Assembly (NCBI GenBank): GCA_031270705.1
Contig: JAISWW010000118.1
Location: 1-41,078, forward strand
Direction: 5' to 3'
Source of the DNA: Deltaproteobacteria bacterium
GTDB lineage: Bacteria > Desulfobacterota > Desulfarculia > Adiutricales > Adiutricaceae
DNA length: 41,078 bases
The notes beneath the pieces were generated by a model, which worked only from the letters and a program-made list of their open reading frames with translations, was not told where the DNA came from and did no database searches. Position 1 is the first letter of the stretch. Every line of letters starts with the position of its first letter. Below, one piece after another: positions 9,837 to 33,273 of the stretch. The translations under genes were made by a program, and so were the position numbers.

Positions 9837-11411
9837 CTAATCCTTAGGTTTGGGCGACTTTTTGTCCTGAGACATGATTATCTCCATGGCTCGTTCCATC
9901 ACGCGGTCAAAATATACGTTTTTAGGCCCGCCTCGCTTCTTTTCCGGGGAATTAGCCGCGGCCTCGCGGGCCGGCTTTTTCTGGAAATCCTCCCGCGCCT
10001 CCTTGACCGCCTCCTTGACCTCGGCCTTGACCTCAGCCTTGACCCCAGCCTTGACCTCATCTTGCCCAGCCTTAACTTTCTTGTTGGGGCTCTGGGCTAA
10101 AGAGTCAACAAAATTACGCCGGCCAACCTGGGTTAGCTGAAACGCGCCTATGGTCGATCTTGGAGATCTCGCCTCTGGGGTCGATTGTGGGGATCTCGCC
10201 TCTGGGGTCGTTCTTGGGGAACTCGGCTCTAGGGTCGATTGTGGGGATCTCGCCTCTGGGGAAACGGGAAGGGTCTCCTTGACAGGAATTGGCTTCAAGC
10301 GCTTGGCAATTTTTCTAAAATCAACATCTTTCACGGAAATTATTTTAGTTTGTTTAATTTTTTTGTTCTTAATATTATTTTCTTTCAATATTTCGACAGA
10401 TTTAGCTAATCTTTTATCTCTTTTAAGCGCTCTTTCAGCTATTTTAATTAACGCTTCAGCCTGCCGATCGGATCTGTCATTAAACCTTGATTCATAAGTC
10501 TTATTCTGATCTAGCGCGGAGGACACGGATTTATCAATAAATATTTCTTTATGGCCACTTTTAGGGTCTTCTAAGCTCAATCCCATTTTAAAGTCAGCGA
10601 TTTGAACGCCAGGAGCTGGGATCAGAGTAAAGGGAGAGTCAGGATCCAAAAAGGGAGCTGGCGCTTCGGGTAAATCCAAAGTATCCATTTCCACGCCAAA
10701 AATCGCCTCCAAGTCCCCTTCCAAAAGAGCTGGATTTTCGGTCGGTCGCGATTCCTCCAGCGGTCGCGATTCCCTTAAGCGTCCCTCGCCAGAGCCAAAA
10801 ATCTCATTAGGATCCACGCTCCGCAATTTAAACAAAAGTTCTGGCGAAGCGTTCAAACGACCAGCCAACTCGTAAAACACCAAGGCCACATGTCGACAAA
10901 GGCCAGCCCAATCAGGACAAGAGCAAGAAAAAGTTATCTCGCCAGCCAAAGGAAAAAGCCCGGTAACTGGATCGCTGAGCGCGGTCATCATCTCGTCGGT
11001 TAAAGGCCCATCCATAATATCAATCAAACTGGGCGTCCGCCGATAAAACTTTATTAAGTTCGCCCATTCGGCCTGGGATAACGGAGCCACGCTCAAAACC
11101 ACCTCGTACAGCTCCGAGTCTTTGACCAAAGAATAAACCCGCCCCGGGCTTACCTCCAGGTGACAGACCGCGTGGTCGCGGAGCAAACCGTCAAAAGAGT
11201 GGCTGTCAAAAGAGTTCAGCCTATAGTCGCCAACGCTAGTTTGTTCCCCTTGAAGAGCGCGCCAATGTTCTATCCAAAAGCTTTCCGAGATAATCCGGCC
11301 ACTCAGGCGAGACGGGATAATATGTTTGCTCAGTTTATTTATGTTTTGAACCAAACGATGGGCTTTGGCCGTTAATTGAGCCTTTGAGACGTAAGGTTTG
11401 CGCCACCACAT
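9837..11411 (-). CDS. SWIM zinc finger family protein with low-complexity C-terminus
   Basis: 524 aa; SWIM motif FSCSCPDWAGLCRHVALVFYEL (CxC...CxH); directly downstream of a SNF2 helicase gene on the same strand. Confidence 0.9.
   Translation of the reverse strand: MWWRKPYVSKAQLTAKAHRLVQNINKLSKHIIPSRLSGRIISESFWIEHWRALQGEQTSVGDYRLNSFDSHSFDGLLRDHAVCHLEVSPGRVYSLVKDSELYEVVLSVAPLSQAEWANLIKFYRRTPSLIDIMDGPLTDEMMTALSDPVTGLFPLAGEITFSCSCPDWAGLCRHVALVFYELAGRLNASPELLFKLRSVDPNEIFGSGEGRLRESRPLEESRPTENPALLEGDLEAIFGVEMDTLDLPEAPAPFLDPDSPFTLIPAPGVQIADFKMGLSLEDPKSGHKEIFIDKSVSSALDQNKTYESRFNDRSDRQAEALIKIAERALKRDKRLAKSVEILKENNIKNKKIKQTKIISVKDVDFRKIAKRLKPIPVKETLPVSPEARSPQSTLEPSSPRTTPEARSPQSTPEARSPRSTIGAFQLTQVGRRNFVDSLAQSPNKKVKAGQDEVKAGVKAEVKAEVKEAVKEAREDFQKKPAREAAANSPEKKRGGPKNVYFDRVMERAMEIIMSQDKKSPKPKD
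9997..10056. repeat. 12-bp in-frame minisatellite, 5 units
   Basis: gcctccttgacc x2, tcggccttgacc, tcagccttgacc, ccagccttgacc; encodes VKxx repeats near the C-terminus of the SWIM protein. Confidence 0.85.
10153..10260. repeat. 27-bp in-frame minisatellite, 4 units
   Basis: gtcgatcttggagatctcgcctctggg / gtcgattgtggggatctcgcctctggg / gtcgttcttggggaactcggctctagg / gtcgattgtggggatctcgcctctggg; encodes PEARSPQST-type 9-aa repeats. Confidence 0.9.
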
Positions 11412-11421
11412 GGGCCCCTCC

Positions 11422-14160
11422 TTAAATAAGAGCCCTATCCAGATCTAAGCTAATCAGATCCAACAAAGCTTGGTCATCGAGGTTAACGATGTTGATCTCG
11501 CCTTCTTGACCTAAAACTTCCTCAGCCAAGGACTTCTTCATTCGGAGCAAGAGGTCAATGCGTTCCTCTAAAGTGCCCCTGGTTACGCATTTATGGACTA
11601 AAACGTTCTTTTTTTGGCCAATTCGGTAAGCCCTATCCGTGGCTTGATCCTCCACCGCCGGGTTCCACCAGCGATCAAAATGGATGACATGGCCAGCCGC
11701 CGTAAGATTTAAGCCCGTGCCCCCCGCCTTTAAAGACAAGATAAAAAATGGCGGCCCCTCGTCTTTTTGGAACTCGTCCACTAAAGCTTGACGCTGGCGA
11801 ACTGGAGTCTGGCCGTGCAGAACTAAGCCTGGCCGCTCAAAGATGACTTCCATCCAACGCCTTAGCGGCTCAATGATCTCCTGAAATTGGGTAAAAATTA
11901 AGACTTTGTCTTGACGCTCGGCCATCTCTTTGGCTAGCTCGGCCAAACGCTTAAACTTGCCGCTCCGCTCTGGGGCCCAATCCATATCCCCAGTCAACTG
12001 GGCGGGATGGTTACATAACTGCTTGAGCTGAACCAGGCTTTGCAGAACCATCCCCCGACGCCTAAATTGGTCGCTGTTGTCTTTGGTAAAGCTGAGTAGG
12101 ATTTGTTTCAAGCGCTCGACAATCTGGTTGTACATCTTCGCTTGAGTCGGGCTAAGCCAGCAATGAACCACGGTCTCGGTCTTGTCGGGCAAGTCGGAGA
12201 TGATGTTTTTGTCGGTCTTTAAGCGTCTTAAAAGATAGGGCGAGATCAACCGGCGAACGGGCGCGTACTGATTTTCGCGTTTATTGTCCAAGGTGTCGAT
12301 AATGGATTTAAACTTCCGAGCCGAGCCCAATAAGCCTGGGTTTAGGTAATCAAACAAAGACCATAAATCCATTAAGTGGTTTTCAATGGGCGTGCCGGTG
12401 AGAGCCAAACGAGCGTGGGCGGGAATCTTGCGGACGGCTCGGCTTTGATCGGTTTTGGGGTTTTTAATGTTCTGGGCCTCGTCGATGATGAACATCCGCC
12501 AGTTAAGGGAGCTAAAAAAATCAACTTTGCGGCCCAACATATTGTAACTGGTGACTACTAGATCACTTTCCATCAAATAATCGGGATTTTTTTCCCAAAA
12601 CTCTAACTTTTCTTTCGGAGTTTCGGAACGATGAAAAAACGACAGCTTTAAAGAAGGAGCGAACCGCTCGGCTTCGTGGCGCCAATTGGCCAAAAGCGAG
12701 GCCGGGGCCACTAAAAGAGAAGGCCGCCTCTCGCCCAAACGCCGCCGATCTAAGAGCAATAAGGCCAAAACCTGCATGGTTTTGCCTAAGCCCATGTCGT
12801 CAGCCAAACAAGCTCCCAAGCCTAAGCCCGTTAATAAAGAAAGCCAGGCCAAGCCTCTTTCTTGATAAGGCCTTAAAGTGGCTTTTAATTCTGACGGAAT
12901 TCCGACGGCCCGCGGCTGGCGGATTTCCTTCAATAGATTAGCCAAAGCCGATCCAGCCTTGACATGAGCCCATTCAGAATCTTCCTCGTCCTCGAAAGCT
13001 AGCGGCAAGCGCGTCGACTGGCCTTGAGAAGTGGGGAAACCAGCCAATAAACGCATGGCCTCAATAAATGACAGGCCATCTTTGGCCTTGGCTTGAGCCT
13101 CTGACCAGTATTCCAGGGCCTGGGTTAATTTGGCTTGGTCAGCGGCCAGCCATTGACCTTTAAAAAAGACCAGCCTCTCTTTGGATTTTAAGATCTCCTC
13201 TATCTCTATAGGGGTTAATTTTTCATCCCCCAACGAAAGAGAGACATTCCAATCCACAAGACTGGTTAAGCCAAACATGGGCGTTGTTTCTTCCCCAACT
13301 GTCACCCTAACTTGGAGCTGGGGCCGACGACGCCACCAATTGGGAATGCGGGCCATGATCCCACACCGCTCCAAAACTGGCGTGTCTATTAAAAACTGGT
13401 GGGCTTGTTCGATGGTGAAAGCCGAGGGTTGGTAGATAGAATTATCCTCCATCATGGCCTTAACCCATTTGAGCCTCTCCCCGGCCAAGCGGGCGGGCTC
13501 CAAAAGCCTTCTTAAGGCGGGGCTATTCCTTTCCCCAGCGTATTGTTTCAAAACCTGCCGCAAAGGCAAATGTTTTTCGCCCTGGCCAGATTTGGAAAAA
13601 CCCGTGACGTAGGTGGCCATAAAGGCGAAAGGCCGAACCAAAGAAGCCTTGTTTTCAGCCAAATGGAAGGCGATCCGACCCACGTTTTGCCACAAAGGGG
13701 CTCTCAGGTCGAGAAACTTGCCCAAATCGCCCACGCCCGTAGCCTTAACCGAGACCCATTCCGCCAATTTGCGCCAAATCGTCTGAATCGCTTCCTCGGA
13801 GAGATATTCGCCGCCGCGCATGGGTGGGGCTCCCAGAACCCAAGCTCGCAATTGCCGGCTGGTCGGGTTATCGAGCTTTAAGGCGCCGGAGGGGCGCTTG
13901 TCGGGCAGACGACACAGGTGAAAGAGGAAATTTTCGCTGATCCCGCGCCAAAAACGCGTCACCTGATCGCCATCCAAGTCCCGGAGAGCGGCCAGGTCAA
14001 AAATGATTTCTCGCCAATCGCCAGCCCGATCCGCGAAGATCAGAGAGGCGCGAGGGGTCAAGGTTACGGAATCCAACATAATTTCGGAGTCAATGGGGGA
14101 ATCAAGAGAAATAAGGGAACCGGTCGAGAGTTCGGAACTTCTTGGAGCCAAGTCAGTCAA
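11422..14160 (-). CDS. SNF2/RapA-like DEAD/DEAH-box helicase
   Basis: 912 aa; ACLADDMGLGKTMQVLALLL (Walker A), FIIDEAQNIKNPKT (DEAQ), LTGTPIENHLMDLWSLFDYLNPG, FILSLKAGGTGLNLTAAGHVIHFDRWWNPAVEDQATDRAYRIGQ. Confidence 0.97.
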   Translation of the reverse strand: MTDLAPRSSELSTGSLISLDSPIDSEIMLDSVTLTPRASLIFADRAGDWREIIFDLAALRDLDGDQVTRFWRGISENFLFHLCRLPDKRPSGALKLDNPTSRQLRAWVLGAPPMRGGEYLSEEAIQTIWRKLAEWVSVKATGVGDLGKFLDLRAPLWQNVGRIAFHLAENKASLVRPFAFMATYVTGFSKSGQGEKHLPLRQVLKQYAGERNSPALRRLLEPARLAGERLKWVKAMMEDNSIYQPSAFTIEQAHQFLIDTPVLERCGIMARIPNWWRRRPQLQVRVTVGEETTPMFGLTSLVDWNVSLSLGDEKLTPIEIEEILKSKERLVFFKGQWLAADQAKLTQALEYWSEAQAKAKDGLSFIEAMRLLAGFPTSQGQSTRLPLAFEDEEDSEWAHVKAGSALANLLKEIRQPRAVGIPSELKATLRPYQERGLAWLSLLTGLGLGACLADDMGLGKTMQVLALLLLDRRRLGERRPSLLVAPASLLANWRHEAERFAPSLKLSFFHRSETPKEKLEFWEKNPDYLMESDLVVTSYNMLGRKVDFFSSLNWRMFIIDEAQNIKNPKTDQSRAVRKIPAHARLALTGTPIENHLMDLWSLFDYLNPGLLGSARKFKSIIDTLDNKRENQYAPVRRLISPYLLRRLKTDKNIISDLPDKTETVVHCWLSPTQAKMYNQIVERLKQILLSFTKDNSDQFRRRGMVLQSLVQLKQLCNHPAQLTGDMDWAPERSGKFKRLAELAKEMAERQDKVLIFTQFQEIIEPLRRWMEVIFERPGLVLHGQTPVRQRQALVDEFQKDEGPPFFILSLKAGGTGLNLTAAGHVIHFDRWWNPAVEDQATDRAYRIGQKKNVLVHKCVTRGTLEERIDLLLRMKKSLAEEVLGQEGEINIVNLDDQALLDLISLDLDRALI

Positions 14161-27178: not shown

Positions 27179-28060
27179 TTAATCTTTTTTGGCCTGACTC
27201 TCCAGAACATGATTGAGGTATTTTTTCAGATCAAAGGCCTCAATATAGGCTCTAGTGGCGGGGGAAAGATTGGCCAAAATCGGGCCCGACTTCTGGGGAG
27301 GATCAGTAGCGTAAAGGTTATAGATAATTTTTACGTTGTTTAAAACATTTAAAGCCGCCTTAACGCTCATCTTAAAACCCAGTTTTTCTAATTCTAGAGG
27401 TAATAAAGATGTTAAAGCCTTTGATAAATTATAATAAAATAAATGAATCCTAGTTATATTTTTGTTTAATGGCTCATTAATCTCGAAAACAAGATCTTCA
27501 ACATTAATTTTTTTATTAATAACCTTTTTAACAACAAAATTATATCGCTTAAATATTAATTGAGATATTTTATCAAAAACCTCGTTTAATTTATCGGGCT
27601 CCAAGGCCAGGGTTCGCCGCCAAAAGCTCTGCCCAGTCAAACAATTGACCGGAACCTGATAAAAGTTAGCAAAAAATGACTTTTCAGACCAAGCCGCCAA
27701 AAAGCGCTCGGTTGATTTGTGGAGCTGTTTCCTGGCCTCGTTAAAGGCCGCCAAAACTAGGCCGGAGCCTACTGACAGCTCTTCTTTAGGGGTGGGGGCT
27801 AGCTCGTCCATAAGCTCAATAATTCCCAAGCGCTCGACCAGGCTCAGTAAAGCCGCCTCTAGGCCAAATTCATAAAGCTGGGCCGAATCTGGCCACGGAA
27901 TCTCCGGCTCTTGGGGCTTTTGACGGGCGGCCATAATATCCTCAATAGTTCCTAGGCTCATAAGAATTTTCTCTTTAGGCGCCCCGTCGCCCTCCTTTAT
28001 GGTTTCGGCCAAATAATAATGGATGGTCTTCCCTTTTTTCCTTTTGGCTATATAAGTCAT
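27179..28060 (-). pseudogene. internally deleted IS1634-family-like transposase ORF
   Basis: N-terminus MTYIAKRKKGKTIHYYLAETIKEGDGAPKEKILMSLGTIEDI resembles IS1634-type transposases; C-terminal dimerisation-like helices kept, but no complete DDE core in ~293 aa. Confidence 0.6.
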
Positions 28061-28177
28061 CAGTACGCTCCTTAAAACTAGGGGCCAAGTTCTTCCATAG
28101 AAAGACCAAAGAGATCTTGTATAATGGCCGAATAGCCCTAAAGATTTAGGGCGAAAATCCCCATCTTTGAGGCCCCC

Positions 28178-28603
28178 ATGCCCCAACCGTCCATCATCGC
28201 CTCCCTGGCTCGGGATCTATCTTTAAAGCTGATAGACCGGCGCAATTTATCCACCGCCAATCTGCCCCAGGCTTTAATTGAGCTGGCCGAAACTGGCCAA
28301 GAGATTGTTCGGGCCAGTAAGATAAAAGGACTGCCACTTTTGCGTTTAGCTGGTTCTTTGACCCTTTCGCAAATTGATCGCGGTTGGCTCGGCCATCTCC
28401 AAGCGATAAAAGAGCGCTTAAAGCTGAACGCTCTTCTTTTAGAAAAAATCGCTCAGGAAGCGGGCCCGGAAAAAGCCAAACAGACTCTCCAACTAACCAT
28501 CTCCGTAACTATTAAACTCATGGAGACCAATGGGGTTAGCTCTAGTAATTGGGAGGAGGCCTTTTGGGCCATCGCTAGAGCCTTTAGCCAAATTACTAAC
28601 TAA
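28178..28603 (+). CDS. hypothetical helical protein (141 aa)
   Basis: ATG ORF, divergently placed from the transposase remnant; no family recognised. Confidence 0.55.
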   Translation: MPQPSIIASLARDLSLKLIDRRNLSTANLPQALIELAETGQEIVRASKIKGLPLLRLAGSLTLSQIDRGWLGHLQAIKERLKLNALLLEKIAQEAGPEKAKQTLQLTISVTIKLMETNGVSSSNWEEAFWAIARAFSQITN

Positions 28604-32361: not shown

Positions 32362-32390
32362 TTGAAATTTCGCTCTGTTTACTGTATCAT
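32362..32390 (+). promoter_or_regulatory. sigma70-like promoter for the secreted repeat protein
   Basis: TTGAAA (32362-32367), 17-bp spacer, TATCAT (32385-32390), ATG at 32439 preceded by TGAGGTG. Confidence 0.55.
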
Positions 32391-32438
32391 TGCGGAACTT
32401 TTACTCTTTATCCTCCATCTGATTCATGAGGTGTTTTT

Positions 32439-32933
32439 ATGTCTAACGTCAAAAAAGGTCTCTTTTTCGTTTTTTTTCTGCCTCTCTTGGCCGCGATCGC
32501 CTTAATTTGCGCCGATCGCTCTGAGGCGGGAGTTTTAAAGGCCCAAGCTGATAATAGTTTGGTCGCCTCCGCCGACGCCCTAGTGGCCAACCAGGCGTTA
32601 AACGCTCAAGGCCAATTAGGCTCCCTCCAGACAGTCTCTGGTCGTGACCGTAGCGATTATTTTGATGACCGTCGGGACGACAAGCGCTACCCCAAGTGCA
32701 GAAAGATCCAAAACCATGACACCAAGCGCTATCGCGAGTGCGTTCAGGATAATTATTACAAAAAACCCGTAAGTCATGGCAAGAAAAAGTGGGACAGAAA
32801 AAGCTGGGACGATCAGTTTGACGATCGTCGGGACGACAAGCGCTACCCCAAGTGCAGAAAGATCCAAAACCATGACAGTAGGAAGTATCGCGAGTGCGTT
32901 TGGAATAACTACTACCACAATTCTTATCGGTAA
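32439..32933 (+). CDS. secreted basic Cys-containing protein with two internal repeats (unknown family)
   Basis: Signal peptide-like MSNVKKGLFFVFFLPLLAAIALICADRSEAG; two copies of DDRRDDKRYPKCRKIQNHD(T/S)(K/R)(R/K)YRECV.NYY. Confidence 0.85.
   Translation: MSNVKKGLFFVFFLPLLAAIALICADRSEAGVLKAQADNSLVASADALVANQALNAQGQLGSLQTVSGRDRSDYFDDRRDDKRYPKCRKIQNHDTKRYRECVQDNYYKKPVSHGKKKWDRKSWDDQFDDRRDDKRYPKCRKIQNHDSRKYRECVWNNYYHNSYR
32670..32877. repeat. 52-bp perfect direct repeat, 156-bp period
   Basis: cgtcgggacgacaagcgctaccccaagtgcagaaagatccaaaaccatgaca at 32670-32721 and 32826-32877. Confidence 0.97.
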
Positions 32934-32950: not shown

Positions 32951-33040
32951 AGGCTGACTCTTTGAGTCAGCCTAAAGGCGGCTTGTGGATTAATTGACTA
33001 GGCCTAAGGGCTTTTAGCCCTCTTAGGCCTATTTTTTTAT
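32951..33040. terminator. two consecutive hairpins, second with T tail
   Basis: AGGCTGACTC TTT GAGTCAGCCT (32951-32973) and TAGGCCTAAGGGC...GCCCTCTTAGGCCTA (32999-33031) followed by a T-rich run. Confidence 0.8.
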
Positions 33041-33273
33041 TTTTTTCTAACCTCGGGATTGACGCCTAAGCATTTATCGGCGAATTGGCACCAACGAGCG
33101 CAACCTTCGTCTAGTTTGGGGTTAGGAAAAATATGGCCACAGCCTGAACACTTCCGACGAGCGTCGTCCTTAAAAAACTCCACTTTCGCCCCACAGCCCG
33201 GGCAAATTATCTCAAATATATCGCCAGGTTTCCAAAAAGCCGTGTCCTGGCCTGGGCACATGATAGTGGCCAT
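33037..33273 (-). CDS. small zinc-ribbon protein
   Basis: 78 aa; IICPGCGAKVEFFKDDARRKCSGCGHIFPNPKLDEGCARWCQFADKCLG. Confidence 0.85.
   Translation of the reverse strand: MATIMCPGQDTAFWKPGDIFEIICPGCGAKVEFFKDDARRKCSGCGHIFPNPKLDEGCARWCQFADKCLGVNPEVRKK

Follow-up and report, generated by a model that had tools for sequence, protein, structure and literature searches.

RcnB (PF11776) and similar R/D/H-rich periplasmic proteins are small, exported and carry R/D-rich low-complexity stretches, while the BA14K-type small exported proteins of Rhizobiales are charged and bear a short module in which a Cys pair occurs together with aromatic residues. These two groups, together with lineage-specific secreted low-complexity repeat proteins, are the closest described systems to the protein reported here, whose gene lies in a DNA stretch of 41,078 nucleotides (hereafter the window). 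The window protein answers to the general description of RcnB as a small, R/D-rich protein with predicted export, but it departs from RcnB in its paired Cys module, its genus-specific N-terminus and the tandem multigene array formed by its family, and no Pfam match to RcnB was obtained with the window protein (E up to 10) or with its relatives and paralogues (E up to 1). BA14K was likewise matched neither by the window protein at E up to 10 nor by the relatives and paralogues, and the Cys spacing and motif of the window protein differ from those of BA14K. With the lineage-specific repeat proteins, the window family has in common a signal peptide, a putatively disordered tandem-repeat tail and the birth and death of copies; it is set apart from them by a common mature N-terminus, an optional hairpin module of the disulfide type, and an array located beside a SPOR-domain gene.

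Searches of Pfam, NCBIfam, PHROG, PDB sequences and PDB folds returned no significant relative, in keeping with the original prediction, which had recognised no family for this protein, and none of the family searches led to a well-characterised family. The best Pfam matches, both below the curated cut-off, were TadE/G-like (PF13400; 14.7 bits against a cut-off of 22.3), where the likeness is a signal-peptide-like hydrophobic stretch, and DUF4258 (PF14076; 10.8 against 25 bits), where it is a partial match to the module region. The sole PDB match, to the Rop protein (E 0.36), was taken as a chance hit. Collections of phages, plasmids and viral contigs held no homologue of the window gene, and a phage- or plasmid-borne gene was rejected on these grounds.

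Coding status and architecture of the window gene

The window gene is an open reading frame of 164 codons running from ATG to TAA (Table 1). Its orthologue in genome G001, which represents another species of the genus (L060:8001-8489, record JAISYP010000156.1, from a MAG titled Deltaproteobacteria) encodes a protein with 69% identity to the window protein. Comparison of the two genes gave an overall dN/dS of 0.226/0.869 = 0.26, instead of the value near 1 that the original prediction had linked to a random substitution pattern, and a dN/dS of 0.12 for module 1, with 35, 27 and 61 differences at codon positions 1, 2 and 3, respectively. The overall ratio and the codon-position bias identify the reading frame as a constrained protein-coding gene; the window gene is thus real, coding and under purifying selection.

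At the N-terminus of the window protein, Lys at residues 5-6 is followed by a hydrophobic core. Hydropathy (15-residue mean) reaches its maximum of 2.89 at residue 9, and nothing above 1.11 is seen beyond residue 31. The A/S-x-A end reads RSEA↓GV in the window protein and QAEA↓GA in the paralogues. The signal-peptide-like N-terminus proposed earlier is upheld by the hydrophobic core together with this end, which is common to the paralogues, and the predicted signal peptide makes secretion of the window protein probable. A bacterial lipoprotein was considered and rejected, as Cys24 (ALIC) misfits the lipobox and is not conserved among the paralogues.

The window protein has two modules of about 35 aa each, 156 bp apart, and the C-x13-C spacing given for them was correct in both. 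AlphaFold predicted two helices for a module modelled alone (pLDDT 79.9), and in the model of the full window protein most of the chain outside the modules and the signal peptide had a pLDDT below 50, both models being built on shallow alignments of 5-7 rows. Such low values are compatible with disorder in the mature chain outside the modules. Across the family, the module Cys residues are paired and their spacing varies from x11 to x14, a pattern to be expected where a loop is closed by a disulfide. In the source genome (G000), G001 and G006, a DsbA-like gene adjoins a DsbB gene; paired Cys residues and Dsb oxidation machinery are hence both present, as for a disulfide-bonded periplasmic protein. 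The Cys pairs with their variable loop, taken with the DsbA-like and DsbB genes, make one disulfide per module likely. The earlier portrait of an exported, charged Cys protein is supported.

As to the signals around the gene, the promoter-like TTGAAA-N17-TATCAT is present where it had been placed, but matches of this kind are expected by chance about 1.5 times per kb; this one is no better than that and is only partly kept in G001. Both downstream hairpins are real on folding, the second being terminator-like, and the proposed stand-alone transcription unit is plausible for the window gene.

Table 1. Features of the window gene and its surroundings (window positions)
Feature	Position	Strand	Basis
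Sigma-70-like promoter match TTGAAA-N17-TATCAT	32362..32390	+	Consensus match; hexamers partly changed in the G001 orthologue
Shine-Dalgarno-like GAGGTG	32428..32433	+	5 nt before ATG, from sequence
CDS	32439..32933	+	164 aa; member of genus-specific, putatively secreted family; dN/dS 0.226/0.869 and third-position bias against orthologue
Predicted Sec-type signal peptide, residues 1-30	32439..32528	+	Hydropathy; predicted cleavage after RSEA; A-x-A end kept in paralogues
Mature N-terminal region, residues 31-72	32529..32654	+	Common to paralogues; profile A2; leave-one-out mature-only profile E = 1.2e-4
Cys module 1 (FDDRRDDKRYPKCRKIQNHDTKRYRECVQDNYY..)	32661..32765	+	Profile A1, E = 9.2e-20; AlphaFold two-helix hairpin, pLDDT about 80
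52-bp tract identical to 32826-32877	32670..32721	+	Informative-site table; probable gene-conversion tract
Inter-module linker	32766..32816	+	Homologous to linker of the G001 orthologue
Cys module 2	32817..32921	+	Profile A1, E = 6.5e-20
Second copy of the 52-bp identical tract	32826..32877	+	Informative-site table
Hairpin GGCTGACTC-TTT-GAGTCAGCC, without T tail	32952..32972	+	Folding, -21.0 kcal/mol including flanks
Intrinsic-terminator-like hairpin with T-rich tail	32999..33046	+	Folding, -21.6 kcal/mol

Age of the internal duplication

The repeat within the gene (32654-32764 against 32810-32920; 111 nt, offset 156) is 85% identical, and an ungapped repeat search scored 94/111 matches, whereas none of 300 codon shuffles exceeded 55/111. 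The near-identical modules, their 156-bp offset and the 52-bp perfect match were all found as claimed, but of the two explanations offered for them, a recent or a homogenised duplication, the former did not hold. The G001 orthologue occupies the same chromosomal site, with atpZ/ATP synthase I on one side and a 4Fe-4S gene on the other, and shares the two-module architecture with a homologous linker. Module DNA identity within a gene is 84.8% and 84.3% for the two orthologues, and the between-species module comparisons A1-B2, A2-B2 and A1-B1 gave 83.3%, 82.4% and 77.1%, respectively. At informative sites 6, 9 and 96 the orthologous copies group across species, while at sites 27, 43, 44, 45 and 57, all inside the 52-bp tract, the two copies group within species. 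Within-gene divergence that about equals between-species divergence, combined with this mixed site pattern, argues for an old duplication with local homogenisation. A recent private duplication is ruled out by the presence of the same two modules at the same site in G001 and by the similar identities within and between species. The comparison thus indicates that the duplication is old rather than recent, and gene conversion of the 52-bp tract is likely, on a small number of informative sites.

G001 harbours a second, tandem copy of the gene (L060:6542-6958; G001:C84), in which an in-frame TAG precedes module 2 and a Cys of module 1 is lost. This copy reads as a decaying duplicate, pointing to birth and death of copies.

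Distribution and composition of the family

Two profiles were used, one for the Cys module (profile A1) and one for the signal peptide plus N-terminus (profile A2). With profile A2, which gives E = 3.2e-27 for the window protein (itself part of the profile), members were detected in six of the seven genomes of the genus, eight being the most that any one genome held; 30 genomes representing ten further genera of the same taxonomic family had none. The only genome of the genus without a member is G004 (64% complete), whose single A2 match, an OmpH/Skp-like protein that resembles the family in its signal peptide, was not accepted as a member. With a mature-only leave-one-out profile, the window protein was recovered (E as listed in Table 1) and about half of the tested members were clear; the homology of the rest was weak, so that signal peptide, composition and position are the basis for assigning some proteins to the family. 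The module itself (profile A1) occurs in four of the seven genomes of the genus and was absent outside the genus, both among 63 genomes of the class and among 395 genomes sampled from the phylum. These profile searches place the window gene in an undescribed, genus-restricted multigene family and show that it is not a lone orphan. One odd reading frame thereby becomes a defined protein family that marks a single genus of uncultured Desulfarculia-like bacteria.

Family members start with the signal peptide and N-terminus and continue into low-complexity tails rich in R/D/N or G/P/N. Some carry one to three copies of a YPxC-x11-14-C-V-x3-Y module, and most paralogues are without any Cys. The window protein fits this layout with its A/S-x-A signal end, common N-terminus, charged low-complexity tail and optional module. 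Other Cys arrangements were observed in two G002 loci (L070:4510-5271 and L071:5564-5980), one with YPSC-x14-C and the other with a four-Cys tail. In addition, long repeat proteins that are rich in G/N/R/P and whose signal peptide is related (L073:9613-10800 and 11325-12569, L063:6341-7945, L065:6283-7506, and L067:5548-6738) are found at one end of the array and form a second subtype of the family.

In the R/D-rich members, the charged-residue fraction of the mature protein is roughly 0.3-0.6 and the net charge is mostly +1 to +22, with several paralogues near net zero. This composition bears on the antimicrobial peptide that had been listed among the possible roles. A small, basic, Cys-containing protein with predicted export could suit an antimicrobial peptide or a bacteriocin-like toxin, but the family is polyampholytic with balanced charges, near zero to mildly positive overall and not cationic amphipathic, and no immunity, maturation or transporter gene accompanies the window gene. 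We consider such a function highly improbable.

Module Cys, Pro and Tyr residues are conserved across divergent copies; the His residue is not. Most modules place a His next to an Asp, and this feature, along with the paired Cys and the Asp-rich composition, is what one would look for in a periplasmic protein that binds or buffers metal along the lines of RcnB or another D/H-rich protein. However, metal binding is made less likely by the absence of this His from divergent modules and by the many members without Cys. No Pfam match to any metal-binding family was obtained for the window protein, relatives or paralogues, and the neighbouring genes are not metal transporters. A metal-related function therefore appears unlikely, and the corresponding part of the original prediction is weakened, whereas the envelope role proposed alongside it is the one that we favour, with some reserve.

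In-frame tandem repeats occur in the paralogue tails examined, their periods being 15, 27, 36, 39, 45, 48, and 57 bp, and a copy in G002 carries a stop and is decaying. Such tandem-repeat growth of tails, this decaying copy and the one in G001 with its in-frame stop and lost Cys, and the sporadic dispersed copies are features of a nearly neutral, self-expanding low-complexity family kept by drift, in which individual copies would have no specific function. Against this stand the intact window copy and orthologue with their low dN/dS and the conservation of the module Cys, Pro and Tyr residues, and we think that drift is improbable as the explanation.

Possible role in the cell envelope

Our preferred, still tentative, reading is that the window protein is a Sec-exported polyampholytic envelope or coat protein with disulfide-pinned helical hairpins. 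After cleavage of the signal peptide, the mature chain would be mostly disordered and strongly charged (R/K and D/E). It would contain two small hairpins of helices (YPxC-x13-CVxxxYY), and the periplasmic DsbA/DsbB pair would most likely form a single disulfide to hold each of them. The protein might then play a structural role in a coat or matrix of the periplasm or cell surface, binding charged envelope polymers or sister proteins via numerous weak ionic contacts, in which the Cys modules would be stiff knots or sites of cross-linking between chains. In-frame tandem duplication, along with gene conversion acting locally, would vary the tails in length and composition. If this reading is true, the family would exemplify envelope polyampholytes of bacteria that carry a modular disulfide knot.

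A host- or flagellate-interaction factor was also considered, in which the variable charged tails would serve as adhesins or ligands directed at a flagellate, other bacteria or the lining of the termite gut, and would diversify under that pressure. The family is genus-restricted, multicopy, tail-swapping and predicted to be exported, the three relatives that bear a name are Deltaproteobacteria MAGs by title, and co-speciation with termites is described for related Adiutrix lineages (PMC10281810). A termite-gut habitat and a placement in Desulfarculia, Candidatus Adiutricales, are probable for the source genome, judging from MAG naming, class make-up and the Adiutricaceae literature (PMC9137090, PMC10281810). 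Nevertheless, this habitat is itself inferred, the window gene has a dN/dS below 1 and shows nothing to indicate positive selection, and neither a surface anchor nor a dedicated secretion system was seen. We surmise that interaction with a host or flagellate is a somewhat unlikely function for the window protein.

Genomic setting

Most members of the family are clustered in an array that adjoins a TPR gene and a SPOR-domain gene. On its other side, the array is bordered by a topA-like gene where contigs reach (G000, G002, and G003), beyond which rimP, nusA, and infB follow in G000. The G000 array is split over contigs C83 and C247, which were joined by inference, and array copy number varies among the genomes. 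The TPR/SPOR pair next to the R/D-rich array was tested with Pfam at L066:2327-5351 and recognised by sequence similarity in L063, L064, L065, L067, and L068. The SPOR gene beside the main array fits weakly with an envelope coat. A further elaboration, which we offer as a rather improbable one, is a genus-specific coat of exported polyampholytes that combine a common N-terminus for export or sorting with interchangeable charged tails and hairpin modules; their genes would stand in an array next to a SPOR gene for peptidoglycan binding, tandem duplication and gene conversion would renew them, and the products would form a condensed layer that adapts the bacterium to an insect-gut or protist partner. 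The recurrent address of the array, together with the N-terminus and Cys-module profiles, allows expression, selection and the number of copies to be followed.

The window copy is a dispersed member, which lies between atpZ and a zinc-ribbon gene and not beside the SPOR gene. This site is empty in G003, G005 and G006, and in G002 it holds unrelated inserted genes. The window copy thus either arrived there before the split of G000 and G001 or was lost elsewhere. The inserts at this site in G002 (L121:991-5647; G002:C184) include, as judged by eye, an apparent transposase and a Schlafen/AlbA-like ATPase, and the site may be an insertion hot spot. Elsewhere in the window, an apparent truncated IS transposase was recognised by eye at 27179-28186 on the minus strand, and reading frames resembling it occur near the C69 paralogue (L072:5352-8483). 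Besides, the source genome has at least three topoisomerase-IA-like genes (L073:4932-8375, G000:C1:5769-6629, and G000:C246:1237-2076), of which the array-side one encodes a divergent protein of 1147 aa with extra zinc-ribbon matches.
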